Assembly (NCBI RefSeq): GCF_013170805.1
Contig: NZ_CP051293.1
Coordinates: forward strand, 4,346,001 to 4,410,000
Direction of reading: 5' to 3'
From: Mesorhizobium sp. NZP2077
Lineage (GTDB): Bacteria; Pseudomonadota; Alphaproteobacteria; Rhizobiales; Rhizobiaceae
DNA: 64,000 nucleotides
Below the pieces are notes generated by a model. The model ran no database searches and was not told the origin of the DNA. It saw only the letters and a program-made list of their open reading frames with translations. A program made the position numbers and the translations under genes. Positions 45,856 through 62,661 of the stretch are shown one piece after another. Within the stretch, counting starts at the first letter, position 1. Each line of letters opens with the position of its first letter.

Positions 45856-45869
45856 TGGCGGAGGGAGTG
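45856..45869. other. Left attachment site (attL core)
   Basis: TGGCGGAGGGAGTG, identical over 14 bases to the 3' end of the tRNA-Ser gene at 62648-62661. The flanking bases differ, so the duplicated core is exactly this length. Confidence 0.88.
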
Positions 45870-45954
45870 CCCGCCGTTCCGCCGTTTCTGCCGCTTTTAT
45901 GGCTCATAACCCATTGTAAACAGCAATAAAATCAATAATGTCACGTATGCGGTT

Positions 45955-47145
45955 ATGGCAACGGGACATGAAATGTCTAGGCACAAGCTATCTGAAGCAG
46001 GCCTGAAGAAGCTCGACAAGGCGGGCATATACAGCGACGGCGACGGGCTTTTCCTGCGTGTCCGCAAGGGCGGATCGAAGCAGTGGTTTTTCATTTACAA
46101 GCGCGCCGGCAAGCGGGCTGAACTCGGCCTGGGCGGATACGGGCAGGGGACGGCACCGGTGTCTGTCGCTCTGGCCCGGGAGAAGGCCGACATATTTCGA
46201 CAGAAGCTTGCCCGAGGCGAGGAATTGCGCGCGACCAGCAAGCCGCCGCGCGTCATCACATTCGAGCACTGCATGGATGAGTTGCTGAAGGCCAAGGCCG
46301 GCGACTGGAAGAACATGAAGCACAAAGCTCAGTGGGAAATGACGCTCCGCGAATATGCCAAGCCGCTTCACGAAATGCCGGTCGCCGACATCGTGCTCGG
46401 GGACGTGAAGGAATGTCTCTTGCCCCATTGGACAGAGAGGCCTGAGACGGCCGACAGGCTCCGGTCACGCATACAGGCTGTCATCGACTACGCCATCGCC
46501 CATGAGTGGCGCACAGCGACCAACCCGGCTCGCTGGCGTGGTCTGCTGGACAAGGTGATGCCGAAGCAGAAGACGCTTTCCCGAGGCCACCATGCGGCGT
46601 TGGCGTATGCCGAAACACCCGCGATGATCAGAAAGCTTCGCCAATCCACAGGCACCGCGGCGCGGGCGGTCGAGTTTCTTGCACTGACTGCCTCGCGCTC
46701 CGGCGAGACGCGCGGCGCCACGTTCCCCGAGATCGACGTCAAGGCAAAGACCTGGACCATACCGGCCGATCGCATGAAGGCCGGGAAAGAACATGTGGTG
46801 CCGCTCACCGACCGGGCGCTCGCCATTGTAGAAATCATGCGCCAACGGTCCACATCGCCGCTGGTCTTCGGGGGAGGAATCGAGGACCGGCCCATATCTG
46901 ACACCGCGATGACGAAGGCGCTTAGGCTGGCATCGCCGGATAAGAAGGCGACGCTGCACGGGCTCCGCAGCTCGTTCCGCGATTGGTGCGGCGACTGCAC
47001 GGCGTTCGAGCGTGACGTTGCCGAGGCTGCACTCGCTCACGCCCTCCGGGATAAGACAGAGGCAGCCTACAGGCGCGCAACGGCGCTGGAGAAGCGGCGG
47101 GAGTTGATGACGGCTTGGGAGGCTTACCTTGACGGATCACGGTGA
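45955..47145 (+). CDS. int: Tyrosine recombinase integrase
   Basis: A 396-residue integrase with an N-terminal arm-binding DUF4102 domain (YSDGDGLFLRVRKGGSKQWFF), a SAM-like core-binding domain and a catalytic domain. The active residues are R248 (SRSGE), K275, H335 and R338 (HGLRSSFRDW), H362 and Y372 (AAYRR). It would recombine the element with the tRNA-Ser site 90 bases to its left. The start could also be the ATG at 45973. The AT-rich leader 45900-45954 probably holds the promoter. Confidence 0.96.
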   Translation: MATGHEMSRHKLSEAGLKKLDKAGIYSDGDGLFLRVRKGGSKQWFFIYKRAGKRAELGLGGYGQGTAPVSVALAREKADIFRQKLARGEELRATSKPPRVITFEHCMDELLKAKAGDWKNMKHKAQWEMTLREYAKPLHEMPVADIVLGDVKECLLPHWTERPETADRLRSRIQAVIDYAIAHEWRTATNPARWRGLLDKVMPKQKTLSRGHHAALAYAETPAMIRKLRQSTGTAARAVEFLALTASRSGETRGATFPEIDVKAKTWTIPADRMKAGKEHVVPLTDRALAIVEIMRQRSTSPLVFGGGIEDRPISDTAMTKALRLASPDKKATLHGLRSSFRDWCGDCTAFERDVAEAALAHALRDKTEAAYRRATALEKRRELMTAWEAYLDGSR

Positions 47146-47728
47146 AATCCTCAGGCGCGCCGCTGCGGGCGAACTAAGCGAAGCCGACGAAACCGCCTTG
47201 GCCGACCGGGTAGTGGAGGCGCTGCGGTTGTACGATCGCCACGTTCAACTTGGCATGGAACTACAAGACGCCAATGGCGACGAGATAAAGGCTCTCCAGG
47301 CGGTTTGCCGTTATCTTTCTCAGACAGCGATACCACCGTGGATGACCATGCCGTTCTGGCTCCGCATCACGGATCTTCGAGCCCCAGAGTTTCGAGAGTC
47401 CAGCGCGTCACTGCCAGAAGCGCAATTGTGGCCAAAGACCTTCGCTTCAGCGGCAATATCTCAATACAAAATTCTACACCTGCGCACGATCAGCGACGCT
47501 GCCAAACATGTGGCAAAGCTGACCGGCTTTGACCACGAGATGATCCTAGCGTTTCGTAAAAGGACGATCGACGAGAGGGAGAAGGGGACCGTCCGAAGGG
47601 CGGGTTACGATCACTACTTGGAGTATTTCAAGTCGATCCCGGCGGAGGATTTCGAGGCGACCGTTTTCGTGGATCTCGCCCAAATCTCCGCAATCCCGGC
47701 AGAAAAAAAGCGAGCTCACAGAAAATAG
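47129..47728 (+). CDS. Element-encoded hypothetical protein
   Basis: A 199-residue soluble protein that starts at TTG within the end of the integrase gene (17-base overlap), preceded by GGGAGG at six bases. Acidic N-terminus (EILRRAAAGELSEADETALADRVV), tryptophan-rich middle (PPWMTMPFWLRI) and basic C-terminus (AEKKRAHRK). No domain is recognised. Its overlap implies co-expression with the integrase. Confidence 0.6.
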   Translation: MTDHGEILRRAAAGELSEADETALADRVVEALRLYDRHVQLGMELQDANGDEIKALQAVCRYLSQTAIPPWMTMPFWLRITDLRAPEFRESSASLPEAQLWPKTFASAAISQYKILHLRTISDAAKHVAKLTGFDHEMILAFRKRTIDEREKGTVRRAGYDHYLEYFKSIPAEDFEATVFVDLAQISAIPAEKKRAHRK

Positions 47729-47760
47729 CGTAATTCGGACCTTTGATTTACGACCTGACT

Positions 47761-47833
47761 ATGCCGCACATGAAGAGCCGTTAACCGGAGCGGCATTTTC
47801 AGCATTGCCGTTCCTACCGAAAGGAACGGCATC
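47761..47833 (+). promoter_or_regulatory. Structured leader of the alpA-like gene with sequestered ribosome binding site
   Basis: A perfect 10-base hairpin (TGCCGTTCCT 47806-47815 with AGGAACGGCA 47822-47831, 6-base loop) holds the ribosome binding site AGGA in its 3' arm, ending two bases before the ATG. Upstream, ATGCCGC (47761-47767) can pair with GCGGCAT (47790-47796), and CGGCA (47791-47795) can instead pair with TGCCG (47806-47810), which would free the ribosome binding site. This is the layout of a translational switch. Confidence 0.65.
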
Positions 47834-48034
47834 ATGGACGAGCATCCCCTCATCAGTATCAAGCAGGTTTCCGCGATGACTTCGCTGTCTCGCGGCGCCA
47901 TCAACATCATGCGTCGTGAAGGCGCTTTTCCGCCTGCAGTCCAACTCGGCGAGAAGCGCATCGCCTTTGTCCGTGCCGAAGTCGATGCATGGGTTCGTGG
48001 TCGCATCGCGGCGCGCCAGCCGGAGACCGCATAG
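47834..48034 (+). CDS. AlpA-family DNA-binding regulator/excisionase
   Basis: A 66-residue protein with a MerR-like helix-turn-helix: PLISIKQVSAMTSLSRGAINIMRREGAFPPAVQLGEKRIAFVRAEVDAWVRGRI. AlpA proteins activate integrase genes or act as excisionases (recombination directionality factors), and in satellites they switch on the element after helper infection. It lies after the integrase and before the replication genes. Its translation appears controlled by the leader hairpin. Confidence 0.9.
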   Translation: MDEHPLISIKQVSAMTSLSRGAINIMRREGAFPPAVQLGEKRIAFVRAEVDAWVRGRIAARQPETA

Positions 48035-48241
48035 ATGAGCTTCGATCTCGATCCCGATCTCGTCGTCCAGGAAGCCGCTCGCTTCCTCATCGAGACGCCG
48101 AAGGCACAGCGCCCGCGGCCTGCAGTCGTGGAAATCCGCAGCCGCTACCCACTCGACGCTCAGGGCGCCTGTGCCGCGCTTAGGCTGGCCAATTCTATTC
48201 GAGCGGGAGGTGTTGCCAATGACAACCACCGCACCTCCTAA
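48035..48241 (+). CDS. Small element-encoded hypothetical protein
   Basis: A 68-residue protein starting MSFDLDPDLVVQEAARFLIE immediately after the AlpA stop codon, so probably made by translational coupling. It overlaps the next gene by 23 bases. No domain is recognised; the LDAQGACAALRLANSIRAGG segment could be a helix-turn-helix but this is weak. Confidence 0.6.
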   Translation: MSFDLDPDLVVQEAARFLIETPKAQRPRPAVVEIRSRYPLDAQGACAALRLANSIRAGGVANDNHRTS

Positions 48242-48953
48242 TCAACGAAAACCCGCCGGCCAGGGCGGGTCTCGCGAAGCAGTTGGGCAGGCAGTCGATA
48301 CCCTTGAAGTTAGCGGTAACCGCGCTGATTTTCAAGGGAAACCATCGCTATCAAATCGGCTGCCGGTACTCGCCGCACAGATTGCCGAGGCGCATATCGG
48401 AGCGCTCGACGCTGCCAAGACTGCCGCAGAGCGGGCTATCGAAGCCGGCCACGCGCTCATCGAGGCGAAGTCGCTGGTCAAGCACGGCGAGTGGTTGCCC
48501 TGGCTGAAAGGGCACTGCCACATATCCGAACGGTCGGCGCAATTTTATATGAAGATCGCCAAGCTCGGCCTCAAATCCGAAATGGTTTCGTTTTTGGGCA
48601 TCAAGGCCGCCGCCGAGGTGATCACCCTCTCCTACCCAGACCCCTTCACGGAGAAGTCCAAGGACGATCTGCGGGAATGGGCGCTTTACATGATCATGGC
48701 CGTCCGAGACGGCTTATCGCTTGGAGCCGCCGAGAGCCACTGTCATTGGCTGGCTCGGCAGAACTGGAAAACGCCATCAGAGTGGCTGGGCGATCGCGGC
48801 GAGCGGTATCGCGCATTTTTCAAAATGAAACAGCCTTCCGGCGCTCATAGGGACGCCTGGCGCGCGTTCATTGAGGCGAACGCCGACAAGACGTTAGAGG
48901 ACATCGAGGCCGAGGTCGCTTCGCTTGCTGGTGGCGCCGGTGGCCAAGCCTGA
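48219..48953 (+). CDS. DUF3102-like phage protein
   Basis: A 244-residue protein with a disordered basic N-terminus (QRKPAGQGGSREAVGQ) and a central DUF3102-like region: AAERAIEAGHALIEAKSLVKHGEWLPWLKGHCHISERSAQFYMKIAKL. Such proteins occur in phages and plasmids and resemble ParB-associated or HTH proteins. GGGAGG eight bases upstream supports the ATG at 48219. It is adjacent to the replication-initiator-like gene. Confidence 0.65.
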   Translation: MTTTAPPNQRKPAGQGGSREAVGQAVDTLEVSGNRADFQGKPSLSNRLPVLAAQIAEAHIGALDAAKTAAERAIEAGHALIEAKSLVKHGEWLPWLKGHCHISERSAQFYMKIAKLGLKSEMVSFLGIKAAAEVITLSYPDPFTEKSKDDLREWALYMIMAVRDGLSLGAAESHCHWLARQNWKTPSEWLGDRGERYRAFFKMKQPSGAHRDAWRAFIEANADKTLEDIEAEVASLAGGAGGQA

Positions 48954-49575
48954 TCGCAAGCGCCTGCCGTGGGAGAAGGAACTGGTCGACTTGAACAAGT
49001 TCGACTGGTCGATCGCCGTTGGGCTGTCTCATTGGCATAAACACTCCCCCCTACAGCTTCGCATCGCCAACGTGCTCATGCAGCACGCGAACGATGGAAA
49101 CATTGCATGGCCGTCGCAACAGACGCTTGCGCAGTATGCCGGCGTTGCCGACTCCGGCCAGGTTCGAAAGGGTGTTCGAGCGCTCAAGGGCTCGGGGGCG
49201 ATCAGCTACTGCAGGATCTCGCAACTCGACGACGTGGAACAGTCGAAGATCACCAGGCAGAAGCGCGGACTCGCCTACAAGCTCGAAATGTTTTGGGCCT
49301 ACGAGCAACTTGAGGAATCACAACAGCCGCTCCGAGCAATGCCGAGACAGCTTCGGGACGGGAAGGCACGCAAGCAACAGCAGCAGTTAGACCGGTCTAC
49401 GGCAGACCGCTCCAACCGGTCTACGATAGACCGCTCCACACCGGTCCACGATAGACCGCCTTATAAGGATGGAACAGAAGAGATCAGTGAAAAGACGGCA
49501 CTGAACGAGGAAGATTCAGCGTCTACACGCGCGACCCCTATCAACGCCTATTCGGCCGCAACGAGGGCTGGCTGA
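48925..49575 (+). CDS. Replication initiator-like protein with HTH domain (lambda O-like), contains the origin
   Basis: A 216-residue protein: an N-terminal winged-helix domain (SPLQLRIANVLMQHANDGNIAWPSQQTLAQYAGVADSGQVRKGVRALKGSGAI) as in phage and plasmid replication proteins, a linker rich in Q and R, and a hydrophilic C-terminus. Three palindromic 24-base iterons lie inside the coding sequence at 49391-49460, as in the lambda O gene. The start is TTG at 48925 or GTG at 48940; it overlaps the previous gene. The initiator role is inferred. Confidence 0.7.
   Translation: MLVAPVAKPDRKRLPWEKELVDLNKFDWSIAVGLSHWHKHSPLQLRIANVLMQHANDGNIAWPSQQTLAQYAGVADSGQVRKGVRALKGSGAISYCRISQLDDVEQSKITRQKRGLAYKLEMFWAYEQLEESQQPLRAMPRQLRDGKARKQQQQLDRSTADRSNRSTIDRSTPVHDRPPYKDGTEEISEKTALNEEDSASTRATPINAYSAATRAG
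49391..49414. repeat. Iteron 1 of a candidate replication origin
   Basis: First of three tandem copies. It has dyad symmetry GGTCT-N5-AGACC. The unit is ACCGGTCTACGGCAGACCGC plus TCCA. It lies in the initiator-like gene. Confidence 0.75.
49415..49438. repeat. Iteron 2 of a candidate replication origin
   Basis: Directly abuts iteron 1 and differs from it at two positions in the centre. Perfect dyad GGTCTA-CGA-TAGACC. Confidence 0.75.
49440..49460. repeat. Iteron 3 of a candidate replication origin, followed by a weaker-pairing segment
   Basis: Third copy, truncated at its end, dyad GGTC(C)A-CGA-TAGACC. The following 60 bases (TTATAAGGAT onward) are A-rich on the plus strand, as expected for an unwinding region beside iterons. 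Confidence 0.7.
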
Positions 49576-49576: not shown

Positions 49577-49861
49577 ATGGAGCGCGGCAACCCCGCCGGC
49601 CGCGTCTGCCAGCAGTGCAGCGGCAGCCTTGAGGGCAAGAGGTCCGATGCGAAGTTTTGCGGCGTGAACTGTCGCAATGCGCACTTCAAACACCAGGTTG
49701 GCCGCGTGGACGCAATTACCGCTCAAGAGCTGATCGGCAGCGCCATGCGCACTGCCTTGATCGAGGCTGAAATTCTAAATCCACAGGACGAGCACGATCC
49801 CGATAAACTGCGCGAAGCGTTCAGCCTTATGTGCCGAAAATTCGAGAAAAATTATGCGTAA
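49577..49861 (+). CDS. Small zinc-ribbon-like hypothetical protein
   Basis: A 94-residue protein with four cysteines arranged as CQQC ... KFCGVNCRNAHF, a treble-clef or zinc-ribbon type site, then a helical acidic C-terminus (TAQELIGSAMRTALIEAEILN). It starts one base after the stop of the initiator-like gene, so the two are coupled. Zinc-ribbon proteins in this position in phages may be transcription or replication accessories. Confidence 0.7.
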   Translation: MERGNPAGRVCQQCSGSLEGKRSDAKFCGVNCRNAHFKHQVGRVDAITAQELIGSAMRTALIEAEILNPQDEHDPDKLREAFSLMCRKFEKNYA

Positions 49862-49937: not shown

Positions 49938-50480
49938 TTGCTAGCGATTTTCAAACCTGCTGCGCACGACGTGTCATATTTTACGAGCGCGTTGAAGCTT
50001 CCCCGGCCTAGCTCAGAATTTCTCGCAGCCGAACGGGAGGCGCGCCATGCAACGGCGGAACTGCGTTCCCTGGTCGAGCGCCGCGAAACGATGAAGCTCC
50101 AGGCAGAGGTCGACAGCCCGACCACGGCACGGATCCCTGCCGAAACCTTTCGCAGCATGCTGGAAAGCCTCAACGCCGAGATTGCCGCCGCCCAAGGCCG
50201 CGATCAAGCAGCAGCCGGCGAGTTCGATCGACAGAAGACCGCCTATGTCGACCACGTCCGCGAAAACCTTGCCGGCGACATCGAAGGTCTAGGTGCCGCG
50301 ATCACCGTCCACCTCGACTTAACACTCGAGTTGCTCGACATCGCCGCTTCGCTCGGCGCCGAAGCACGCGAGCGCCACGTCGAGATGCCCGGCCTCGTCA
50401 AAGATGCAGCGGCCGCCAAGCGGTTGATTGAAACGGTGGCTTTCAGTGCCGTTCGCAAAATGATCGGGGCAAGACTTTGA
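49938..50480 (+). CDS. Coiled-coil element-encoded hypothetical protein
   Basis: A 180-residue largely helical protein starting at TTG, with GGAG seven bases upstream. Coiled-coil stretches are ATAELRSLVERRETMKLQAEV and SMLESLNAEIAAAQGRDQAAAGE. It overlaps the start of the ClpP-like gene by 4 bases. Scaffolding proteins of phage heads are often of this kind and lie beside the protease gene, so a scaffold role is possible, but no homology is recognised. Confidence 0.6.
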   Translation: MLAIFKPAAHDVSYFTSALKLPRPSSEFLAAEREARHATAELRSLVERRETMKLQAEVDSPTTARIPAETFRSMLESLNAEIAAAQGRDQAAAGEFDRQKTAYVDHVRENLAGDIEGLGAAITVHLDLTLELLDIAASLGAEARERHVEMPGLVKDAAAAKRLIETVAFSAVRKMIGARL

Positions 50481-51151
50481 CCGACGATCTCCTCTCCCGC
50501 ATCGCCGCGCTTGAGCAGCAAGTTGGCGAATTCCTGCCGGCTGCGCTGGTACGGAAAAGCGGCGCCCTGCAGCCGGCCGAGTGGCTGATGGGTGAAGTTC
50601 GAGCCAAGGCTGAAATTGATCGCGACAGTGCGAATATGTCCGTCGTTGATGTGGCGGAAATTCACATCGTTGGCGACATCGATGACGTCATGGCCTTGAG
50701 CGTGCACGACCAGTTGGAAGCGGCTCGGCTCTCGCCGGCAATCCGCGTCCATATCGACAGCCAAGGCGGTGATTACGATGCCGCTGTCAGGATCCACCGC
50801 AGCATCCGGTGGCATCCTGGCATGACGCACGCCAAGCTCGGCCGGCGGTGCATGAGTGCCGGTGTGCTGGTGGCGATGGGATGCGATCGCCGCGTCGCAT
50901 CATCGACTACAGAATTTATGCTTCACTTGACCGCTGACCTTCCCGACCCGCGCGATCGTTGGACGATGTACAGGCACATCGAGGCAGCCCGCCGGCTGCG
51001 GCAGACTGACAGCTTGTACCTCAACGTCATCGCCGATCGCAGTGGCGCCGACCTCGCCGCATTGGCGATCGAGGCAGCAAAGGACGAGCGGCAGTCGCTT
51101 CAATGGTGCCTGGCGAACAAGCTCATTCACGCCATTGAGATGCCGCTATGA
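50477..51151 (+). CDS. ClpP-like head maturation protease
   Basis: A 224-residue serine protease of the ClpP/S14 phage prohead type. The core strand-helix pattern EIHIVGDIDD and VHIDSQGGDYDAAVRIHRSIR is clear; the predicted nucleophile is S127 (RRCMSAGVLVAMG) and the histidine H150 (TEFMLHL). In phages it trims capsid and scaffold proteins during head assembly, yet no capsid gene is recognisable in the element. Starts at TTG overlapping the previous stop. Confidence 0.85.
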   Translation: MTDDLLSRIAALEQQVGEFLPAALVRKSGALQPAEWLMGEVRAKAEIDRDSANMSVVDVAEIHIVGDIDDVMALSVHDQLEAARLSPAIRVHIDSQGGDYDAAVRIHRSIRWHPGMTHAKLGRRCMSAGVLVAMGCDRRVASSTTEFMLHLTADLPDPRDRWTMYRHIEAARRLRQTDSLYLNVIADRSGADLAALAIEAAKDERQSLQWCLANKLIHAIEMPL

Positions 51152-52089
51152 AAAAGCCAGCAGCCTCAAAGCCAGTCGTTATCGGCGACCCGCACCAGGC
51201 CGGCCTGAGCAAGGTCAACCGGGAAATCGATGAACTCGACGCTGCGATCAAGCTACTGGCGGTGGACGAGAAAGATGCTGAGCAGAAGCTCGACGATGAT
51301 CGGTGGCGCGCCGTCGGGAAGGCTATGCGTGCTGCCATAGATCGCCGGACGAAACTCCAGGCCGAGCGTGCCGAGCGCATGGCGGGAATCTGGATCGAGC
51401 CAAAGCAACCGGCTGCTCCCGCCGCCGCGCCGGTTCAACACCGCGCTTGGGAGATAAACGAGCAGGCTCTAAAGGCCGGCGTCCCGAAGTATCCTGCTGA
51501 CGTCCTCAGGACGGGCAGCAAGGCCGACAAGGATGAGGTGTTCTTCAAGGAATACGGGCGTTCCGTCGAATACTGGTCTGCGAATTTTGCGGAAGGCTTT
51601 AGGAAACAAGGCTTCCCCCCGGATTTAAAGGTGGGGCTAGACTTCCTGTGCAACATGATGGGAGCGGATAGGGCCAGCTTCCTGTGGCTCTCGCATCGCT
51701 GCCTGTCCCTGGAGACGCGCCTCGCCGAGATCGAGAGCCGTCCCGTCTCCGAGCAGCGCGGCAACGCCAAACCCTTGCAGCGGTCGGTGACCAAGGTTTT
51801 GAAGCACGGCACCGACGGCCGCATCGAGGAATTCGAAAAGATCGAAGGCGAGTCGGAACAGATCGACCTGCTTGCCCGCATCGAGGCTTTGGAAGCCCGG
51901 CCCACGCTGAAATATGCAGGCGTCTGGAACAAAACGATCAAATATTCGCCCGGCGACATAGTCAGCTACGGCGGCTCTTCCTGGCATTCGAACATCACAT
52001 CGACTGGTCTGCAGCCTGGCGCAGACAATCCGGCGAGCTGGACGCTCATGACCAAGCGCGGCAGAGACGGGAAGGACGCAAGGCCATGA
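51148..52089 (+). CDS. Phage structural-type protein with C-terminal carbohydrate-binding module
   Basis: A 313-residue protein. The N-terminal 90 residues are a charged helical region (EIDELDAAIKLLAVDEKDAEQKL). The C-terminal 60 residues form a CBM5/12-like module: YAGVWNKTIKYSPGDIVSYGGSSWHSN ... PASWTLMTKRGRDGKD, common at the ends of phage tail fibres. It overlaps the protease gene by 4 bases (ATGA) and the next gene by 4 bases. It may be a head decoration or receptor-binding protein; this is an inference. Confidence 0.65.
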   Translation: MKKPAASKPVVIGDPHQAGLSKVNREIDELDAAIKLLAVDEKDAEQKLDDDRWRAVGKAMRAAIDRRTKLQAERAERMAGIWIEPKQPAAPAAAPVQHRAWEINEQALKAGVPKYPADVLRTGSKADKDEVFFKEYGRSVEYWSANFAEGFRKQGFPPDLKVGLDFLCNMMGADRASFLWLSHRCLSLETRLAEIESRPVSEQRGNAKPLQRSVTKVLKHGTDGRIEEFEKIEGESEQIDLLARIEALEARPTLKYAGVWNKTIKYSPGDIVSYGGSSWHSNITSTGLQPGADNPASWTLMTKRGRDGKDARP

Positions 52090-52646
52090 CCCTCGACGAA
52101 GCAGACCAGACCCTGCGTGACGCCATGCGCAAGGCGCTGCGGGCGTATGCCGTTGAACTGCAGGCCGAGGGCGTGGACACTGAGAGTTTGTCCTGCCCGA
52201 AGCTGGACGCGTACTACCTCGTCCTGCATCAATGGCGGCTGGACACCCTGGCCAGCATCACCAGCCCAACGACCAAGGCAGCGAACGACAACACCACCGT
52301 GTCGGCCGAGCTTGCCCAGGTCAGCAAGAGATGCGCGGGCCTGTTCGTGAACCACTTCAAGCGCGCGCCGACGGCAGCGGAGACGACGATGCTCGTCGGC
52401 GCCATCATGCGGTGGCACGTCGCAGACAGAGCGGCGAAGGAAGCCAAGGCCAAGGCGCCAGTCCTTGATCAGGTCGATGTCGTGTTGGCCGAGGATGGCA
52501 AGAGCGTCGCGCTGTACGGCTACACCAGCGATGACCAATGCTTCACTCAGTCCTTTGCCGCGCTACCGATGGCGATCGACGAAGAGAACATCATCGACGA
52601 CGAATGGCGCGCCGCCGCTGATCCGACAAAGTGGGTGCGGCTGTGA
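52086..52646 (+). CDS. Element-encoded hypothetical protein
   Basis: A 186-residue protein starting MTLDEADQTLRDAMRKALRA with a 4-base overlap to the previous gene, which fixes the start. Helical first half, then a stretch ending in IDEENIIDDEWRAAADPTKW. No domain is recognised. Lies just ahead of the terminase genes. Confidence 0.65.
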   Translation: MTLDEADQTLRDAMRKALRAYAVELQAEGVDTESLSCPKLDAYYLVLHQWRLDTLASITSPTTKAANDNTTVSAELAQVSKRCAGLFVNHFKRAPTAAETTMLVGAIMRWHVADRAAKEAKAKAPVLDQVDVVLAEDGKSVALYGYTSDDQCFTQSFAALPMAIDEENIIDDEWRAAADPTKWVRL

Positions 52647-52773: not shown

Positions 52774-53193
52774 ATGGGTGCTCGCGGTCCAAAATCATCG
52801 GCACATTCGGCCATCGTCTCCGAGACGCCAGCCAGCCCGAACCCTGTGGCGACCAGGCCAGCACCGAAAGTGCCGCCGGCGCCGTCGCACCTGTCACCAC
52901 AGACACGCAAGTGGTTCGAGGCCATCGTGGCCGAGTTCGAGCTCGAAAGCTGGCACATCAAGGTTTTGATCGCTGCGGCCGAGTCGTGGGACCGCAAAGA
53001 GCAAGCGAGGCGCGCCATCGCGCGGCATGGCCTCAGCTTCAAGGATGCGCGCGGCAACGTGAAGGTGCGGCCGGAAGTGTCGGTCGAGCGCGATGCGCGC
53101 ACCGCCTTCATGCGGGCGATGCGGGAACTCGACCTTGACGCGGAAGGACCCAAGGAAGCGCCGCGCGCGCCGGCCATTCGGAGCAATCGATGA
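52774..53193 (+). CDS. terS: Phage terminase small subunit, P27 family
   Basis: A 139-residue protein with the P27-type opening MGARGPKS and a helical DNA-binding core (SPQTRKWFEAIVAEFELESWHIKVLIAAAESWDRKEQARRAI). It recognises the packaging site and recruits the large subunit to start genome packaging. It ends with a 4-base overlap into the next small gene; terL and an HNH endonuclease follow, the classic packaging module order. Confidence 0.88.
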   Translation: MGARGPKSSAHSAIVSETPASPNPVATRPAPKVPPAPSHLSPQTRKWFEAIVAEFELESWHIKVLIAAAESWDRKEQARRAIARHGLSFKDARGNVKVRPEVSVERDARTAFMRAMRELDLDAEGPKEAPRAPAIRSNR

Positions 53194-53426
53194 AGCGCCG
53201 CATCTCCAAGGTACGAACCGGCTTCAGCGACCACGCCGTGGAAGCCTTCCGCGCAGGCGATCGGCTTGCTCTCGGTCAGGCGCTGGACCTGAAGCCATGG
53301 GAGCCGAACCCATTGGACGTCGACGGGCCTCTCGCGCCTGACTGGGCGCGCCACGATGGCACTGCCTGGAGCCAGGCGTGGTCGGCATCCTGGGAAGTCC
53401 GCCAGCAACTCGAGGACCTATCATGA
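53190..53426 (+). CDS. Small hypothetical protein between terS and terL
   Basis: A 78-residue protein starting MKRRISKVRTGFSDHAVEAF, with a tryptophan-rich C-terminus (PDWARHDGTAWSQAWSASWEV). It overlaps both neighbours by 4 bases (ATGA), so it is surely translated with them. Function unknown; similar small proteins lie between terminase subunits in other rhizobial prophages. Confidence 0.7.
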   Translation: MKRRISKVRTGFSDHAVEAFRAGDRLALGQALDLKPWEPNPLDVDGPLAPDWARHDGTAWSQAWSASWEVRQQLEDLS

Positions 53427-54955
53427 TCAGCCGGGCCGAGCGAAATATCAGGTGGATTGAGGATTTCTGTCGGGTTCCCGAAGGCAAGGACATTGGCAAG
53501 CCCGTACGGTTGCGGCCTTGGCAGAAGGACGATCTCCGCAAGATCTACGATAATCCGCATGGCACGCGCCTGGCGATCATTTCGTTTGGAAAGAAGAACG
53601 GCAAAACATCGCTGGCCGGCTGTCTGCTGCTGCTGCATACGTGCGGCCCGGAGGCGATCCCGAACACCCAGCTTCCGAGCACGGCGCAATCGAAGGAACA
53701 GGCGGCTGTGCTGTTCGGTCTCGCTGCGAAGATGGTGCGCTTCAGTCCAAGTTTGGACGCGGCGATCGTCATCCGCGATACCGTCAAGCAGCTGCACGCG
53801 CCGACCTTGGGAACGCTCTACAAGGCGCTCTCGGCCGAGGCCTCGACGGCACACGGACAATCCCCGATCTTTGCCGTTCATGACGAGCTTGGTCAGGTGC
53901 GCGGCCCGGTTTCCGAACTTTACAACGCCGTCGAAAATGCAATGGGCGCCCATGAAGCGCCGATGAGCGTGATCATCTCGACCCAGGCGCCGAACGACTC
54001 GGATCTGCTCTCGATCCTGATCGACGACGCGCTCGCCGGGCATGATCCCCATACCGTGATCAGCCTCTATTCGGCCGACATGTCGATCGATCCGTTTTCC
54101 GATGAGGCGCTGCTTCAGGCGAACCCGGCCTTCGGCGACTTCCTGAACGCTGACGAGGTGCGTAAGCAAGCCGAGAACGCCCGGCGCCTATCGTCCCAGG
54201 AACCCTTGTTCAGAAACTACACGCTAAACCAGCGCGTCGAGGCGAGCAGCCCGTTTGTCTCGCGCGGCGCATGGCAGGAATGCGGCGGCCCGGTCGCCGC
54301 GGATTTCAAGGGCCGGCCGGTCTATGGCGGCCTCGACCTGTCGGAAGTGAACGATCTCACGGCCCTGGTGTTGGTCGCGCCCTTCGATGACGTCTGGAAC
54401 GTCAAACCGACGTTCTGGCTGCCTGGTGCAAGCCTACGCGAGAAAGCCCGCCATGATCGGGTGCCTTATGACGTGTGGGCGAAGGAAGGGTTCCTTACGC
54501 CGACGCCCGGCCCGACAGTCGACTATGAGTATGTCGCCAAGGCGCTGGCGGCCATCTTCGACCACCTCGACGTTCGAAAGATCGCCTTTGACCGTTGGAA
54601 CTGGCGGCACCTCAAGCCCTACCTGGCAAAGGTCGGCTTCACCGAGGCACAGCTAGAAGGCGACAACGCCGTTTTCGAGCAGATGGGACAGGGCTTCCAG
54701 TCCATGTCGCCGGCGCTGCGCGAATTGGAAAGCGCCATCCTCAACGGCAAGATCGCTCACGGCAACCATCCCGTTCTAGGCATGTGCGCGGCCAACGCCA
54801 CGGTGCAGACGGACCCGGCCGGTAATAGAAAGCTGTCGAAGTCCAAGTCGCACGGTCGCATCGACGGCATGGTTGCTCTCGCTATGGCCATGAGCGTCGC
54901 AGGCACCCACAAAGAGGCGCCCAAGCCGACGTATCAAATGTTGTTTGTCGGGTGA
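53423..54955 (+). CDS. terL: Phage terminase large subunit
   Basis: A 510-residue packaging motor. ATPase domain: Walker A SFGKKNGKTS (K61), Walker B FAVHDELGQ (D154, E155). The C-terminal RNase H-like nuclease has acidic residues D305 (GGLDLSEVND), D390 (IAFDRWN) and D481 (HGRIDGM). This is the HK97-type Terminase_1 family; all key residues are present, so the protein should be active. It overlaps the preceding gene by 4 bases. Confidence 0.93.
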   Translation: MISRAERNIRWIEDFCRVPEGKDIGKPVRLRPWQKDDLRKIYDNPHGTRLAIISFGKKNGKTSLAGCLLLLHTCGPEAIPNTQLPSTAQSKEQAAVLFGLAAKMVRFSPSLDAAIVIRDTVKQLHAPTLGTLYKALSAEASTAHGQSPIFAVHDELGQVRGPVSELYNAVENAMGAHEAPMSVIISTQAPNDSDLLSILIDDALAGHDPHTVISLYSADMSIDPFSDEALLQANPAFGDFLNADEVRKQAENARRLSSQEPLFRNYTLNQRVEASSPFVSRGAWQECGGPVAADFKGRPVYGGLDLSEVNDLTALVLVAPFDDVWNVKPTFWLPGASLREKARHDRVPYDVWAKEGFLTPTPGPTVDYEYVAKALAAIFDHLDVRKIAFDRWNWRHLKPYLAKVGFTEAQLEGDNAVFEQMGQGFQSMSPALRELESAILNGKIAHGNHPVLGMCAANATVQTDPAGNRKLSKSKSHGRIDGMVALAMAMSVAGTHKEAPKPTYQMLFVG

Positions 54956-54960
54956 TCGCC

Positions 54961-55311
54961 ATGGCCAGGAAAGACCGCCGCAGTCCCGAAGCCGAAGCTT
55001 ATCGGAAGCTCTACAAGACCGCGTATTGGCAGGCGATTCGCACCGGACAGCTGAACAAGCACCCGCTATGCCAACCATGCCTGCAGCGCGGCCGCGTCGA
55101 GCGCGCCACGGTCTGCCACCACGTCGACCCAGAGACGAAGAAAACCAACTTCTACGGCGGACCTTTTCAGTCCGTCTGCCAGCCCTGCCACGACGGTCCA
55201 ATCCAGTCCGAAGAGAAGCGCGGTTTCTCCAACGAGATCGGCGTCGACGGCTGGCCGGTCGATCCGTCCCATCCTGCCAATCGCAAGCCGGGAGCGTCAA
55301 GCAATGATTAA
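54961..55311 (+). CDS. HNH endonuclease
   Basis: A 116-residue protein with the zinc-bound HNH fold: CQPC (C37, C40), the catalytic VCHHVDP (H53, H54) and CQPCH (C73, C76, H77). In many cos-type phages an HNH protein beside the terminase is needed for DNA cleavage during packaging. It begins 5 bases after the terL stop (an alternative GTG at 54952 overlaps it) and overlaps the next gene by 8 bases. Confidence 0.9.
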   Translation: MARKDRRSPEAEAYRKLYKTAYWQAIRTGQLNKHPLCQPCLQRGRVERATVCHHVDPETKKTNFYGGPFQSVCQPCHDGPIQSEEKRGFSNEIGVDGWPVDPSHPANRKPGASSND

Positions 55312-55549
55312 GAAACCGCAAACCTACTGGACCGAGCGCGCGGAAGCGGCCGACGCGGCACGCCGTGAGCAACAGCTTGCGATCGCCCGCAACCTGATCA
55401 TCGCCGGCATCGAAGCGGCCTTCCTGATCACGGGATCCGGACTCGAGGCCCTTGAAGAAACTGAAACAGCGATGGGTGCCTTTCTGGCTGCCCATGGCGC
55501 GCAGCTGACGGCCGAGGTCGAAGCTATTGAAACTCAGGGGAGTGCCTGA
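55304..55549 (+). CDS. Small element-encoded hypothetical protein
   Basis: An 81-residue helical protein starting MIKKPQTYWTERAEAADAAR with an alanine-rich hydrophobic middle (IIAGIEAAFLITGSGLEALEE). It overlaps the HNH gene and ends 2 bases before the tape-measure-like gene. No family is recognised. In complete prophages the portal and capsid genes would lie here. Confidence 0.65.
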   Translation: MIKKPQTYWTERAEAADAARREQQLAIARNLIIAGIEAAFLITGSGLEALEETETAMGAFLAAHGAQLTAEVEAIETQGSA

Positions 55550-57468: not shown

Positions 57469-57831
57469 TTGCAAGACCACGACCTTATCGAGCGTCCTGG
57501 TAAAGGCTTCACGCCGTGGAAAGAAGGCCCGCCCGACGGCGCCATCGACAAGATTTGGTGGGCGGCTCGAGAATTGCATTTCGCCAAATTGAATGTGACG
57601 TGCTGGTTTGACGGCTCAGATCTCGTCGGCATCGAACATTGGGGTTTCCGCCACGCGAAGTGGACGATGAAGGTGAAGCCGGCCGACTGGCAGCCGCTCC
57701 CTGAAGTATACCGCCTGGCCCGAGAGGCGAAGGTGCAAGCCGAGGTCGATCTATTCCGGGCCAGGTCGAATGCGCGCTTCCTGCAGGCCACAGCAAGGCG
57801 CCAGAGCACGGGAAAGGCTTTCGGCGCGTAG
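57469..57831 (+). CDS. Element-encoded hypothetical protein
   Basis: A 120-residue protein starting at TTG, rich in tryptophan (GFTPWKEGPPDGAIDKIWWAARE, WGFRHAKWTMKVKPADWQPLP). The C-terminal 40 residues are basic and helical. No family is recognised. Located in the region where a complete phage would carry distal tail genes. Confidence 0.6.
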   Translation: MQDHDLIERPGKGFTPWKEGPPDGAIDKIWWAARELHFAKLNVTCWFDGSDLVGIEHWGFRHAKWTMKVKPADWQPLPEVYRLAREAKVQAEVDLFRARSNARFLQATARRQSTGKAFGA

Positions 57832-58012: not shown

Positions 58013-58150
58013 CCGACGGGCGCTGGTGGAGAGCCGCCGCGAACCGTTTGGTCGCCAAACTCTTTGATGCCGCGCCAAGCCTATTGCCATCCAGATCGAT
58101 ATCAGGAATATAATCCTCTCCCTTGCGGCGACCCTTCAACGGAGATCGCC

Positions 58151-58441
58151 ATGCCCCAAAAGACCCTCGCTGAAACCCTTGCCGCCCGTGAAACCGTCTA
58201 TGTGCATTGCGGGCATCCTGTCTGCAGCAAATCAGCCCAGGTCGATATTCAAGCGCTGATCGACAAGCTGGGACCGGATCATGGTGCCATGCACTGGGAT
58301 CTCGTGGGGCTCTTTGCGTGCTCGGATTGCAAGGTCGCCGGCCGCGATCGGCGCCCTGTGTTCTTCACCGTCGTTCCTGATTACGAGGGCATCAACGCCC
58401 GACGAAACCGCGACTGGAAACCGACCTTCGATCAAAGGTAA
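58151..58441 (+). CDS. Small cysteine-rich (zinc-binding) hypothetical protein
   Basis: A 96-residue protein with two cysteine pairs, YVHCGHPVCSKSA and LFACSDCKVAG, positioned like a zinc knuckle. GGAG six bases upstream supports the ATG at 58151. Similar short proteins occur across rhizobial genomes and prophages without known function. It is followed by a terminator. Confidence 0.7.
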   Translation: MPQKTLAETLAARETVYVHCGHPVCSKSAQVDIQALIDKLGPDHGAMHWDLVGLFACSDCKVAGRDRRPVFFTVVPDYEGINARRNRDWKPTFDQR

Positions 58442-58585: not shown

Positions 58586-58966
58586 ATGTCCCAATCTGTT
58601 GAACCACCGATCTTACCAGAGGGAAGCCCAGATCGTGAGGTGAACTGTGAAGTCGCATTAGAAGCCGCATTCGCGGCCCTGGTGACTACGTCAGAGGCGC
58701 AAGGTTGGACGCCCCAGGAAACGGCTGCAACTCTGCTCAAAATCGCGACGGAACATGCCCACCAGCTTGAGGCTGCTGCGGCCGCTGAGTTGCTGACCAC
58801 CAAGGACGAACAGGCGGCCTTCGATATGGCCAAGGAGATCGGCGGCAAGGTGCGGGTCGAGACGATCACGCCGAAGCCGCGCGAAAAGACCAGCACGACA
58901 GACACTGTAGACAAAAGCAGCGATTCTGGTAAATCTCCGGCCAAGCATAGGAAGGGGCAATCCTAG
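58586..58966 (+). CDS. Element-encoded hypothetical protein
   Basis: A 126-residue acidic helical protein (VALEAAFAALVTTSEAQGW ... ATLLKIATEHAHQLEAAAAAELL) with a disordered Ser/Lys-rich C-terminus (DKSSDSGKSPAKHRKGQS). AGGAGA precedes the start. No family is recognised; it resembles short proteins in rhizobial prophages. Confidence 0.6.
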   Translation: MSQSVEPPILPEGSPDREVNCEVALEAAFAALVTTSEAQGWTPQETAATLLKIATEHAHQLEAAAAAELLTTKDEQAAFDMAKEIGGKVRVETITPKPREKTSTTDTVDKSSDSGKSPAKHRKGQS

Positions 58967-59714: not shown

Positions 59715-59727
59715 GGAAGTGACCACT

Positions 59728-59958: not shown

Positions 59959-60041
59959 CTTTCGCTTTGCCATGGAAGGCAAGTGCCTTACCTATCGGCG
60001 CCTCCATCGGTCTCGGTGACACCAAGAGGGGGTGTCTTGTC

Positions 60042-60356
60042 CTAGTTAGAAGTTTGGCGCCTGAAGCCGTTCAGTGCCCATCGCACCAATATGGCAAAGA
60101 GAAAAACCGCCAATGGCGGCAGCAGAGCTTGACTGACCCATCCAAGCCAGTGGGCGAACTCAAAATCAAGTATATCGGCGACGCGGTTCGGACCTTCGTG
60201 CGGCCATGCCTCTGCAGAGCATAACTCCTGGCCCGTTCTAACGCCGTTGAGGTCAAGCATCTCAAAGCAGCTACTGTACAGCCGCCAAACTATATATCCA
60301 ATCCACACCGCTGATGACAGGATCCAAATCCTGATCAACCCACGACGCCAGTTCAT
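60042..60356 (-). CDS. Membrane protein co-transcribed with the repressor
   Basis: A 104-residue protein with two membrane segments, IWILSSAVWIGYIVWRLY and LLPPLAVFLFAILVRWAL, separated by about 50 acidic residues. Its ATG overlaps the repressor stop by 4 bases (ATGA), so it is expressed in the lysogenic state. Genes in this position often give superinfection exclusion or other lysogenic conversion traits; the role here is not known. Confidence 0.7.
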   Translation of the reverse strand: MNWRRGLIRIWILSSAVWIGYIVWRLYSSCFEMLDLNGVRTGQELCSAEAWPHEGPNRVADILDFEFAHWLGWVSQALLPPLAVFLFAILVRWALNGFRRQTSN

Positions 60357-60583
60357 CGCGCGCGCCTCAGCCTGACCCCGGCGCCGCCGCCATTCTCGGG
60401 GATGAACTCGACGCCAGCCGCTTCGAGGGCGCGCTCGATCGCCGCCAATGCGTCTTCCGAGCCGCCGTATTTGCCTGTCTCGAAATTCGAGATCGTATTG
60501 CGGTGAACTCCAGCCGCCTTGGAAAGGTCGGCAAGGGACCAGTTCAACGCCGCTCTCGCCATCCTCACTTGTGCAGGCTTCAC
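60353..60583 (-). CDS. Cro/CI-type transcriptional repressor
   Basis: A 76-residue XRE-family protein, essentially one helix-turn-helix domain: LADLSKAAGVHRNTISNFETGK at residues 17-38. It starts at GTG within one of the operator palindromes and is divergent from the small rightward genes, the normal place of a phage immunity repressor. It lacks a cleavable C-terminal domain, so induction by RecA-dependent cleavage is not expected. Confidence 0.88.
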   Translation of the reverse strand: MKPAQVRMARAALNWSLADLSKAAGVHRNTISNFETGKYGGSEDALAAIERALEAAGVEFIPENGGGAGVRLRRAR

Positions 60584-60586
60584 AAC
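60568..60586. promoter_or_regulatory. Immunity operator O1
   Basis: CTTGTG-N7-CACAAC, a near-perfect dyad that covers the repressor's GTG start codon. Same spacing as the next site. Confidence 0.65.
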
Positions 60587-60594
60587 TCATGTCC

Positions 60595-60613
60595 CTTGTG
60601 CTAATTTCACAAG
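60595..60613. promoter_or_regulatory. Immunity operator O2 and partial O3
   Basis: CTTGTG-N7-CACAAG, a perfect dyad with 7-base spacer between the divergent genes. A weaker third site (CAAGTG-N7-CACAAC) overlaps it at 60610-60628. The arrangement of two or three sites between divergent genes is like lambdoid operators. Confidence 0.7.
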
Positions 60614-60644
60614 TGTAAGTATCACAACCAACTGGAGAAATCCA

Positions 60645-60758
60645 ATGCCGAACACCTGTGTTCCGGCGGCCGGCGAAGCTATGCCCGCTGCCGAGGTAAT
60701 GCCGATCATCGGGCGATTTTCCGGCCGGATCCTGCTCGTCCAGCGGAGGCCGTCATGA
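60645..60758 (+). CDS. Small ORF in the cro position
   Basis: A 37-residue frame starting MPNTCVPAAGEAMPAAEVMP and ending ILLVQRRPS. GGAG seven bases upstream is a good ribosome binding site, and its stop overlaps the next small gene by 4 bases. It has no helix-turn-helix, so it is not a normal Cro protein. Confidence 0.5.
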   Translation: MPNTCVPAAGEAMPAAEVMPIIGRFSGRILLVQRRPS

Positions 60759-60913
60759 CCTACGCCGCAATAGCCATGCTGCTGAGCGCAGCGGCCTTAC
60801 GCACGCGCCTGGCGCGCGGTAGCCTCGCCTACCTACTCCTGAAGACGTCCAACGTCCTGCACGACGCTGGCGCCCGCGTAATCGACAACATCGAGGAGGA
60901 CTTCCATGGATGA
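60755..60913 (+). CDS. Small ORF, 52 residues
   Basis: My own translation gives a frame starting MTYAAIAMLLSAAALRTRLA with a short hydrophobic N-terminus and ending IEEDFHG. It overlaps the previous ORF by 4 bases (ATGA) and the next gene by 8 bases. No family is recognised; the overlaps on both sides are the main support. Confidence 0.5.
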   Translation: MTYAAIAMLLSAAALRTRLARGSLAYLLLKTSNVLHDAGARVIDNIEEDFHG

Positions 60914-61709
60914 GATCCAGCTTACGGCAGCCGCCGAAGGCATGCCCAATTTCAACCGCCGGAAGGCCTTGGCCGTCACCGGGTCGGGCCTAGCTGCCAC
61001 CATCGCCGCAATGGTTGCGCCTCGCAACGCAGCCGCTGCGGTGGTCGTCAATGAGGCGCCGGTCACCCGCGTCAACAACTTGGCCTGGGCCCTGGCGCGG
61101 GCCATGGACGACTGGATGGTCGACCTCGGAGTTGATGGCGTCCCGGATATCTGGAAGGCTCACGTCTACCCCTACAGCCAGCGCAAGCATCCCGTCGCGT
61201 TCGAAAGCCTTGATCGGTCGCCTTCACCTTCTGCCCGAGTGGCCGAACTCGAAGCCGCATTCCACGCCGAATGGGCAGCGCTCCGGGCCATAGAGCCGGC
61301 GCTGAATGCGGCAGAGCTGCGCTATATGGAGATCAAGGGGAGTCGGCCCGTCATGGGTGAAATGACGCCCGAGGAAGCCGACAGGCTTCGCAGCACCACT
61401 GTCGCTGACCTTGCAAAGCTACCGCCTAACCGCGCCAGCGTCGAACATGCCGAGGCAATGCGCGCGTATAACAAAGCCGACGCTGCTGCTCGCCGCAAGA
61501 CGGGTTACGGCAAGCTCGATAGAGCATACATGAAGGCCACGCACCGTACTTCGGACGTGGCCAACGCGCTCCTTCGCCATCCCGCCATGACGCTTGAAGA
61601 CCTTGCCTCCAAGGTGCGGGTTCATCGGGTGTGGGAGTACGACGGGGAAGACTTCAACTTCATTATGGACGACATCGCCCGTGTAGCCGGGAAGGCGGGT
61701 GCGTCATGA
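60906..61709 (+). CDS. Element-encoded protein with Tat-like signal
   Basis: A 267-residue protein. Residues 16-45 contain a twin-arginine pattern NRRKALAV followed by a hydrophobic stretch (TGSGLAATIAAMVAP) and an alanine-rich cleavage-like site (RNAAAA). The rest is helical and charged, with no recognised domain. Export of a protein from an early phage operon would be unusual. It overlaps the next gene by 4 bases. Confidence 0.65.
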   Translation: MDEIQLTAAAEGMPNFNRRKALAVTGSGLAATIAAMVAPRNAAAAVVVNEAPVTRVNNLAWALARAMDDWMVDLGVDGVPDIWKAHVYPYSQRKHPVAFESLDRSPSPSARVAELEAAFHAEWAALRAIEPALNAAELRYMEIKGSRPVMGEMTPEEADRLRSTTVADLAKLPPNRASVEHAEAMRAYNKADAAARRKTGYGKLDRAYMKATHRTSDVANALLRHPAMTLEDLASKVRVHRVWEYDGEDFNFIMDDIARVAGKAGAS

Positions 61710-61960
61710 ATCGCCAGACCCTGTTCATCGGCATGACGCCGACCCTTCGCCTGCGCATCGAAACGACGATCGAGAACCTGCTGTCGTTGCTCGACGAGAT
61801 CGATGGCGACGAGAACCTTGAGCCATACCACGCTGGCTTTGATCAGCGCACCATGGACGATCGCGAAGGCGACGACGAGCGGGAAGCGATAGACGAGCGC
61901 GAGGACGATCACGGGGATTACGACGGCCCCGGCTTCATATCGGGAGGGCAGGGTCTCTAA
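61706..61960 (+). CDS. Small acidic hypothetical protein
   Basis: An 84-residue protein starting MNRQTLFIGMTPTLRLRIET, with a very acidic second half (RTMDDREGDDEREAIDEREDDHGDYD). Acidic proteins of this size in phages often mimic DNA, for example anti-restriction proteins; this is a guess from charge only. Start fixed by a 4-base overlap with the previous gene. Confidence 0.6.
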   Translation: MNRQTLFIGMTPTLRLRIETTIENLLSLLDEIDGDENLEPYHAGFDQRTMDDREGDDEREAIDEREDDHGDYDGPGFISGGQGL

Positions 61961-62004
61961 ATTCTAAAGCACTAGGATGCGCACATTTCGCCATTTGACA
62001 CCAC

Positions 62005-62033
62005 TATGCGCATATGCAATACATATACGCATA
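62005..62033. promoter_or_regulatory. Operator palindrome ahead of the RHH gene
   Basis: TATGCGCATATG-N5-CATATACGCATA, 12-base arms with one mismatch, directly after a TTGACA -35-like hexamer (61995-62000) and 12 bases before the RHH start codon. Ideal place for autoregulation by the RHH protein. Confidence 0.75.
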
Positions 62034-62045
62034 AAGGAGGCGCGA

Positions 62046-62525
62046 ATGGCAAAGATGAGCATATACCTGCCGGACGAACTGAAAGAGCGCATGGACACCC
62101 GGCCAACCGATAATTGGTCCGGCATCGCCCAGCGAGCATTTGAAATGCAGATCAACTCAACCCTCAAAGGAGGCAGTGACATGACAGCAGTGATTGAACG
62201 GCTCCGCGCATCGAAGGAGAAGATCGAGGAGCAGCAGCGCCCGGAATGGACAAAAGACGGGCGCGAGTGGGCAAGCGAGCGGGCACAGTATGACGAACTC
62301 GCTCGCTACGGCGAGATCGACGTCGACCAATACGACGAACCAAACGAACTTCTGCGGGCCATGTGCGTGGCCTACTACGACGAGCTTGATATCGACGGCA
62401 TGCAGATAGCAGAAATGTGCGAGATGTTGACAGGCTCCGAGGACAAGCGACCGACTCTCAACCAACTGATCTGGTTCGTAGAAGGCGCCCAGGAAGTCTG
62501 GGAACAGGTCAAGGACGAGGTCTGA
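62046..62525 (+). CDS. Ribbon-helix-helix protein
   Basis: A 159-residue protein with an N-terminal RHH DNA-binding domain (AKMSIYLPDELKERMDTRPTDNWSGIAQRAFEMQI) and a long acidic C-terminal region (EWASERAQYDELARYGEIDVDQYDEPNELLRAM). It is like an antitoxin or Arc-type regulator; no toxin gene is beside it. AAAGGAGG upstream is a strong ribosome binding site, and a palindromic operator overlaps the promoter. Last gene of the element. Confidence 0.75.
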   Translation: MAKMSIYLPDELKERMDTRPTDNWSGIAQRAFEMQINSTLKGGSDMTAVIERLRASKEKIEEQQRPEWTKDGREWASERAQYDELARYGEIDVDQYDEPNELLRAMCVAYYDELDIDGMQIAEMCEMLTGSEDKRPTLNQLIWFVEGAQEVWEQVKDEV

Positions 62526-62552
62526 AAATCAAGTTTCTCCGCGCCAGCTTTG

Positions 62553-62582
62553 GCCCGCTGCCTCACGGTGGCGGGCTTTTTC
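62553..62582 (+). terminator. Rho-independent terminator at the right end of the element
   Basis: Stem GCCCGCTGCC/GGTGGCGGGC (one mismatch), short loop, then TTTTTT. It ends the RHH gene before the tRNA. Confidence 0.88.
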
Positions 62583-62647
62583 ATTTAGGTCAACGGTTAT
62601 GGCAAGACGGCAAAATGGTGCCTAAGTGATTGATTTTGCTTAGGTTG

Positions 62648-62661
62648 TGGCGGAGGGAGTG
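62648..62661. other. Right attachment site (attR core) within tRNA-Ser
   Basis: TGGCGGAGGGAGTG, the acceptor end of the tRNA, identical to the copy at 45856-45869. Confidence 0.88.

Follow-up and report, generated by a model that had tools for sequence, protein, structure and literature searches.

A Mesorhizobium element with its own terminase and tape measure but no recognisable phage head: a likely satellite from a ClpP-marked family

How could a mobile element move between cells if it encodes a DNA-packaging motor and no head into which to pack? The question is raised by an integrated element of 16,806 bp (positions 45856-62661) in Mesorhizobium sp. NZP2077, lying within a stretch of 64,000 nucleotides that was analysed as a whole (the window). 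An initial annotation had described packaging genes without capsid, portal or tail genes, and had suggested a phage satellite that keeps its own packaging while borrowing virions. We consider a satellite life-style likely, and travel in the shells of a real phage probable because the element is without a phage head. The reading that we favour, with a probability of roughly 0.62, is a head-less satellite that brings its own terminase, borrows heads from an HK97-type siphophage and places its own tape measure in the tails. The window's element is called WIN here (genome G000), and handles such as L032, G041 and G356 denote comparison loci or genomes; feature coordinates are collected in Table 1.

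Hidden Markov model (HMM) scans bear out the proposed identities of the small and large terminase subunits (TerS and TerL), the HNH endonuclease, a ClpP-type protease and the tail tape measure protein (TMP), and TerL also matches a solved chain described as 'Terminase large subunit' (6z6d, E 2.6e-147), so TerS, TerL and HNH are all WIN's own. These scans against PHROGs and Pfam covered 20 window proteins and left out g2, the AlpA-like protein, g35, g94, g125, g52 and g109; gene starts were set by a simple gene caller. The packaging genes belong to a tightly joined set, as had been claimed: between 49938 and 55549, seven of the eight gene junctions are overlaps of 4 or 8 bases, and one (52646/52774) is a gap, of 127 bases. 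The statement that tail genes are missing was too strong, since a tape measure is a tail gene. The WIN TMP has full-length kin in G041 and, among phage-like loci, in G127, G144 and G020.

The absence of a recognisable capsid or portal held up. The host genome and thirteen other whole genomes were searched in six frames with the capsid profile PF05065 and the portal profile PF04860, other capsid and portal families not being searched, and no match was found in the host's 7.69-Mb, two-contig genome or in the nine other element-bearing Mesorhizobium genomes (the ten bearers being G000, G041, G145, G123, G006, G067, G080, G049, G018 and G003). As controls for the host-genome search, each profile had matches in four of 14 genomes, above the cut-off in three (PF05065) and four (PF04860). 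Positive genomes included G127, with a full prophage, and G032, with a different compact element; in G356 and G176 the matches lay on contigs other than those of their elements. Among the 20 window proteins scanned, neither a connector nor a major tail protein was matched. WIN differs from a complete temperate phage in that capsid, portal and major tail protein were not found in it.

Several WIN proteins were considered as hidden head proteins, and none of them looks like a capsid or portal. The products of g180, g186, g81 and g120 are small (81-186 aa), and the usual HK97-type capsid and portal proteins are well above this size. For g180, profile comparison with the PDB gave weak matches only, mostly to helical chains (apolipoprotein A-IV, BST-2). 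Matches of the g313 protein to 'portal protein' PHROGs are confined to its last ~60 residues. Its structural model consists of long helices and a small domain like chitin-binding and phage tail-fibre domains (pLDDT 77.9, pTM 0.38); when this model was used for a structure search, six viral matches and no PDB match reached E 0.001. In annotated coliphage-type records, among them Salmonella phage FSL SP-016 and phage PPompW_EH2246, the C-terminal domain is encoded by the gene directly after the portal gene (in the latter phage this gene is itself labelled portal), and in the G127 prophage a 354-aa g313-type protein directly follows a 472-aa portal. The portal label is misleading because phrog_2271 spans both proteins, its first half matching the G127 portal and its second half the g313-like protein. 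On the confined matches, the separate post-portal gene and the fold of the model, we reject g313 as a hidden portal.

The element is discrete and integrated, with attachment (att) repeats at a tRNA gene, as phage satellites in general are. The 14-base core TGGCGGAGGGAGTG occurs exactly twice within the window, starting at 45856 and 62648, and one copy is the 3′ end of a tRNA-Ser(tga) gene, which confirms the proposed integration at tRNA-Ser; Rfam found no RNA elements in the window beyond tRNA. In other genomes, kin of the left flank lie near the same tRNA. In G038 they extend up to window position 45724 and lie ~1.5 kb from the tRNA, as against ~16.9 kb in the window; shorter matches in G026, G116 and G013 end at window positions 44795, 44673 and 44499, which are ~240, 330 and 860 bp from tRNA-Ser in those genomes as against ~18 kb in the window. 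DNA has therefore been inserted at this site in the window. As a separate observation, relatives of the stretches 44747-44980 and 45062-45726, which precede attL, occur at many further loci in the genus; the flank is continuous to 45724 in G038 and ends earlier in G013, G026 and G116.

The ClpP-like protease marks a family to which the element belongs. The protein had no match in 50,697 phage records or among plasmids; of 5.8 billion proteins it matched 21, itself among them, and all those with a source name came from Mesorhizobium. Within the genus it was found in 11 of 146 genomes including the window's (five others at 65-75% identity, four at 31-36% and one fragment, in G017). A family-level profile search gave matches at E 1e-8 or better in 171 of 394 genomes, most of them weak; the strongest outside the genus were in G356 (E 4.2e-67) and G176 (E 5.3e-35), and the remaining weak ones were taken, unchecked, for ordinary ClpP or other S14 proteins. 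Among viral contigs, scanning with the single sequence gave no match, and scanning with the profile recovered L032 a second time (as L189), along with one weak match, L190.

Thirteen elements from three genera were examined (WIN, L032, G041, G145, G123, G006, G067, G080, G049, G018, G003, G356 and G176), all with ClpP by selection; for L032, G080, G018 and G176 the contig is short or runs out. G017 was left out, its match being a stop-containing piece of 53 residues, and G032 because it has no ClpP match and carries portal and capsid genes. With gaps, the elements have in common an ordered core of integrase, g35, g94, g180, ClpP, g313 and g186, together with right-arm genes that include g125, g52 and g109. 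Kin of g180 were recognised in seven other elements by clustering and in three further by position only; g313 was not found in the elements of G049, G018 and G176. It had been pointed out that larger relatives would make this element a deletion derivative. The relatives examined are instead similarly small, with the same core and different phage parts. That we are dealing with a family of small elements, mostly in Mesorhizobium, and not with a one-off deleted prophage is well supported; the family could not be matched to a described one.

Around this core the cargo varies greatly. Counted from scanned proteins (ten open reading frames, ORFs, in the case of L032), tblastn and clustering, so that a very divergent TerL or TMP could escape, TerS is present in seven of the 13 elements (WIN, L032, G123, G049, G003, G356, G176), TerL in three (WIN, L032, G356), HNH in seven (WIN, L032, G041, G145, G006, G080, G356) and TMP in three (WIN, G041, G356). 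A tail-tip protein, corresponding to the N-terminal part of phrog_4271, occurs in four (L032 and G067, with G049 and G018 added by clustering), and glycosidase or baseplate-labelled proteins, which look LamG-like, in another set of four (G041, G080, G003, L032). Single finds are a neck protein in G356, a tail-fibre-type protein in G067, a weak prohead-protease-like piece of 117 aa in G145, and, near the ClpP-type protease of L032, a 158-aa S78 prohead protease (PF04586; L032:2104-2580), no capsid being found in that element. G123 and G049 encode proteins of 211-228 aa that match the middle of long 'virion structural protein' PHROGs (head and packaging) and have no Pfam match. Capsid, true portal and major tail protein were found in none of the scanned proteins of the 13 elements. 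In G356, which belongs to another genus, the order is TerS, TerL, neck, a 108-aa tail protein and TMP, with TerL ~830 bp upstream of TMP and no head genes; its TerL is very different from that of WIN (24.8% identity over 153 residues).

Such variability is what would be expected if the elements were integrative mobilisable elements or plain islands that collect phage genes by recombination, any packaging being done wholly by a helper, and it would also agree with the lack of a detected TerL in ten of the 13, three of which (G080, G018 and G176) are on short or ending contigs. We regard this explanation as very unlikely, given the constraint on TerL and TMP, the conserved ClpP-g313 block and the lack of a relaxase match among the 20 window proteins scanned. 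The ratio of non-synonymous to synonymous substitution rates (dN/dS) is 0.10 for TerL between WIN and L032 (dS 1.18), 0.14-0.26 for ClpP in six pairs, 0.20-0.25 for g313, 0.25 for TMP, 0.25 for g81 and 0.19 for g94, and the TerL, ClpP, g313 and TMP sequences in these pairs contain no stops. Many dS values approach or exceed 1 or are saturated, so the ratios are rough, and the selection that they reflect could partly date from life in phages.

Gene order and phylogeny speak against such an origin in phages, as does the arrangement in G356. Of the 37 other loci with both genes, 36 have HNH before TerL; the sole exception is L032, where it follows TerL as in WIN. The TerL proteins of these two elements are sisters in one clade (SH-aLRT 99, by a quick method), and since they alone have HNH after TerL, the pair was probably inherited inside the elements. 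The tape measures of WIN and G041 pair in a tree (support 90/95), the WIN TMP being equally similar to that of G144.

Where would the heads come from? A candidate source is an HK97-type siphophage related to the G127 prophage, whose genes run TerS, TerL, head maturation protease, capsid, portal, g313-type protein and Neck1 (connector), followed by major tail protein, a 126-aa gene, TMP and tail tip. What it has in common with WIN and its kin comprises TerL (66% identity to WIN), HNH (68%), TMP (49%, or 57% over its first 454 residues), the g313-type gene and the tail tip, the last two belonging to the same PHROG families as the elements' versions; unlike WIN, it has capsid, portal, connector and major tail protein and lacks a match to the ClpP gene. 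In a comparison made without the glycosidase and LamG-like proteins, G127 had counterparts for most of the family's cargo types. A ~6-kb block of other genes was observed between capsid and portal of this prophage (L139/L140, concatenated ~14536-20591).

From the gene content we infer a course of excision, helper dependence, packaging into helper heads and assembly of chimeric tails. The integrase would excise the element from tRNA-Ser, probably under the control of AlpA and after activation of a helper phage, and replication would start from iterons inside the O-like initiator gene. The satellite's own TerS, TerL and HNH would then load its DNA into helper heads (capsid, portal and connectors) made by the G127-related siphophage, and these heads would be fitted with tails built on the satellite's own TMP, giving chimeric particles. 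The g180-ClpP-g313 core would probably adapt the helper heads, with ClpP as a processing protease and g313 as an accessory component of the virion, similar to those whose genes lie next to that of the portal. In the ClpP-like protein, Ser127 and His150 are invariant in all 17 aligned sequences. Its role in heads is a guess, because the model (pLDDT 89.7) resembles both SppA and cellular ClpP, the latter with TM-scores on target of up to 0.84 among the matches listed, because head maturation protease and ATP-dependent protease are nearly tied among its PHROG matches, and because G127 has no counterpart.

Several points count against a head-less satellite of this kind. The TerL of the satellite would have to dock on a foreign portal, the host genome contains no resident HK97-type helper recognisable by PF05065 or PF04860, and an exact empty junction was absent among 144 genomes. 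With TerL and TMP each found in 3 of 13 members, the cargo varies too much for one packaging scheme to fit them all. Constraint is weaker for HNH between G041 and G006 (dN/dS 0.30) and for the tail tip between L032 and G067, a distant pair (0.52), and dS is saturated for HNH between WIN and L032 and for TerS between WIN and G123. There are in-frame stops in the g313 gene of L032 and a stop in the g125 stretch of G049.

Some of these scars would suit decaying prophages, each copy being a deletion remnant of a temperate siphophage whose intact genes are merely not yet lost. The cargo genes are typical of siphophages, and to the stops in L032 and G049 and the ratio of 0.52 can be added a 16-residue piece of g81 before the glycosidase in G080, the 117-aa piece in G145 and the ClpP fragment with a stop in G017. 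Decay is nevertheless an unlikely account of the family as a whole. The same core, order and small size recur across many genomes, dN/dS is 0.10-0.26 in the TerL, ClpP, g313 and TMP pairs, and WIN and L032 have in common an element-specific TerL-HNH order. The ClpP gene, unmatched in phage records, points to no obvious known full-phage parent, and the ten Mesorhizobium genomes searched gave no capsid or portal profile match.

P4-like satellites are, as WIN appears to be, integrated helper-dependent elements. P4 is packaged by the terminase of P2 into Sid-resized P2 heads (PMC10690885), whereas WIN has its own terminase. Gram-negative phage-inducible chromosomal islands (PICIs) have int, an AlpA-type regulator, a replication gene and in some cases TerS, in a genome about one-third the size of the helper's (PMC6092414); WIN has a clear int and a TerS, with weakly matched candidates for the AlpA-type regulator and the replication gene, and its TerL, TMP and ClpP-g313 core go unmentioned in the excerpt of that source. 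Besides terminase and HNH, capsid-forming PICIs (cf-PICIs) bring a capsid, protease, portal and connectors of their own (PMC10690885), and putative tmp genes are drawn in some of them (PMC12987554, legend of Extended Data Fig. 10). Int, TerS, TerL and HNH are also present in WIN, together with the candidate AlpA-like and replication genes; no capsid or portal was found in the WIN family, and no connector among the 20 window proteins scanned. The building of tails on a satellite's own TMP has a demonstrated precedent in the PICI-like elements (PLEs) of Vibrio, which encode both a TMP and a chaperone. Their transfer drops when tmp is deleted, and their tails are chimeric; they have been called the first satellites known to build chimeric tails (PMC12987554, 2026). 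The likeness to WIN, drawn from description with no sequences compared, lies in a satellite-encoded TMP with a small neighbouring gene, g81, which shares the position of the chaperone, kinship not being shown. No satellite with a full terminase and a TMP but no head turned up in searches confined to an open-licence library.

The Rta protein of the PLE11 satellite blocks phage tail assembly (PMC12987554), which lends some substance to the idea that the parts carried by such satellites or islands mainly sabotage infecting phages, with stray TerS, TMP, tail tip or protease poisoning assembly and transfer being secondary. A changing sample of single virion parts would suit decoys. We nonetheless find this improbable: TerS, TerL and HNH make up a complete motor, where a decoy could do with less, the core has the look of virion adaptation, and PADLOC found no defence gene among ten unknown proteins.

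The satellite reading first proposed for the locus therefore stands in one part and changes in another. The element does own its packaging genes, in an arrangement unlike that of cf-PICIs, and similarly small relatives with the same core and different parts fit a satellite of that kind. It does not simply borrow virions, because it and its kin carry selected virion parts, namely a tape measure, a tail tip, a glycosidase and a g313-type protein. Going further, we put forward tentatively, at somewhat less than even odds, that these elements form a distinct satellite class without a head, some members having a full packaging motor, in which interchangeable virion parts (tape measure, tail tip, glycosidase, neck and protease genes) are set on a fixed ClpP-centred core; the satellites would load the helper's empty heads and rebuild the tail, and the cargo would set helper or host range. 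If the head-less satellite reading is true, ownership of a packaging motor would not require ownership of a head, and the element's TerL must act on the portal of another phage, giving a direct test of the specificity of the motor-portal joint. The family would offer independent cases of satellite tape measures, and the exchange of single virion parts around an unchanging core would allow helper choice and tail length to be separated by experiment, in a harmless plant symbiont.

Table 1. Features of the integrated element and its insertion site (window positions)
Feature	Position	Strand	Basis
attL core TGGCGGAGGGAGTG	45856..45869	+	exact second copy of tRNA-Ser 3′ end
Tyrosine integrase, 396 aa	45955..47145	+	phrog_1 E 9.5e-45; PF22022, PF13356, PF00589
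199-aa protein after int	47129..47728	+	ORF only; no PADLOC match
AlpA-like regulator, 66 aa	47834..48034	+	weak, E 0.0034 to 8c3t
g35, 68-aa core protein	48035..48241	+	kin at same place in several family elements
DUF3102 protein (possible start 48219)	48171..48953	+	PF11300 E 1.4e-10
O-like replication initiator	48925..49575	+	phrog_391 E 3e-4 (weak); PF13730 just below cut-off
Three iterons, 20 nt, spacing 24-25 nt, probable origin	49391..49459	.	direct repeat family
g94, Cys-rich core protein	49577..49861	+	51-60% identity in G041, G145, G123, G067
g180, core protein upstream of ClpP	49938..50480	+	no PHROG or Pfam match
ClpP-like S14 serine protease, 224 aa, family marker gene	50477..51151	+	PF00574 above cut-off
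g313, helical N-terminal part and C-terminal CBM5/12-like domain	51148..52089	+	PHROG matches, model
g186, core protein	52086..52646	+	partial kin in G145, G123, G006, G041
TerS	52774..53193	+	phrog_83 E 6.1e-12; PF05119
g78, small protein after TerS	53190..53426	+	53-61% identity in G123, G049, L032
TerL, 510 aa	53423..54955	+	phrog_9 E 2.7e-117; 84% identity to L032
HNH endonuclease, downstream of TerL	54952..55311	+	phrog_2323 E 7.1e-26
g81, small protein directly before tape measure	55304..55549	+	68% identity in G041, same position
Tail tape measure protein (TMP), 617 aa	55552..57405	+	phrog_9483 E 3.2e-18
g120, conserved small protein	57469..57831	+	57% identity in G049, 51% in G356
g125, Cys-containing right-arm protein	58064..58441	+	up to 72% identity in family elements
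g126	58586..58966	+	phrog_37486 E 2.4e-9
g52, small right-arm protein	60755..60913	+	83% identity in G041
267-aa right-arm protein	60906..61709	+	ORF; no family match
g109, very acidic right-arm protein	61706..61960	+	kin in other elements
182-aa last gene	61977..62525	+	ORF; no family match
attR core inside tRNA-Ser 3′ end	62648..62661	+	repeat core
tRNA-Ser(tga), integration target	62648..62737	-	ARAGORN, Rfam

The left arm had been described as carrying an integrase, AlpA and an initiator-like gene with an origin, and candidates for all three stand together at one end. The integrase is clear; AlpA, called from a single weak match to a solved chain entitled 'AlpA family phage regulatory protein', and the initiator are both weakly matched. 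Three iterons lie within the initiator gene, as the claim of an origin there had implied, and probably mark it. The proposed repressor region was not recovered, no repressor-like match being obtained among the six right-hand ORFs scanned. The g109 family (WIN and nine other elements) encodes very acidic, repetitive proteins, with runs of D/E and repeated motifs, at the right end of the elements.

Two loci show right-arm pieces just upstream of an integrase-side end: G006:C104 (L163/L164) and G049:C5 (L168), with g120 and g125 and, in G049, also g126. In G006 a tRNA-Ser(tga) lies between these pieces and the integrase-side end. Both arrangements are probably tandem or neighbouring insertions. 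A different compact element, L138 (G032:C24:236001-256000), lies near tRNA-Val and contains portal, capsid and head-tail adaptor genes, with TerL directly before a relative of the tape measure (48% identity), then an AlpA-like gene and an integrase-like gene; it looks like a capsid-forming satellite with a TMP.

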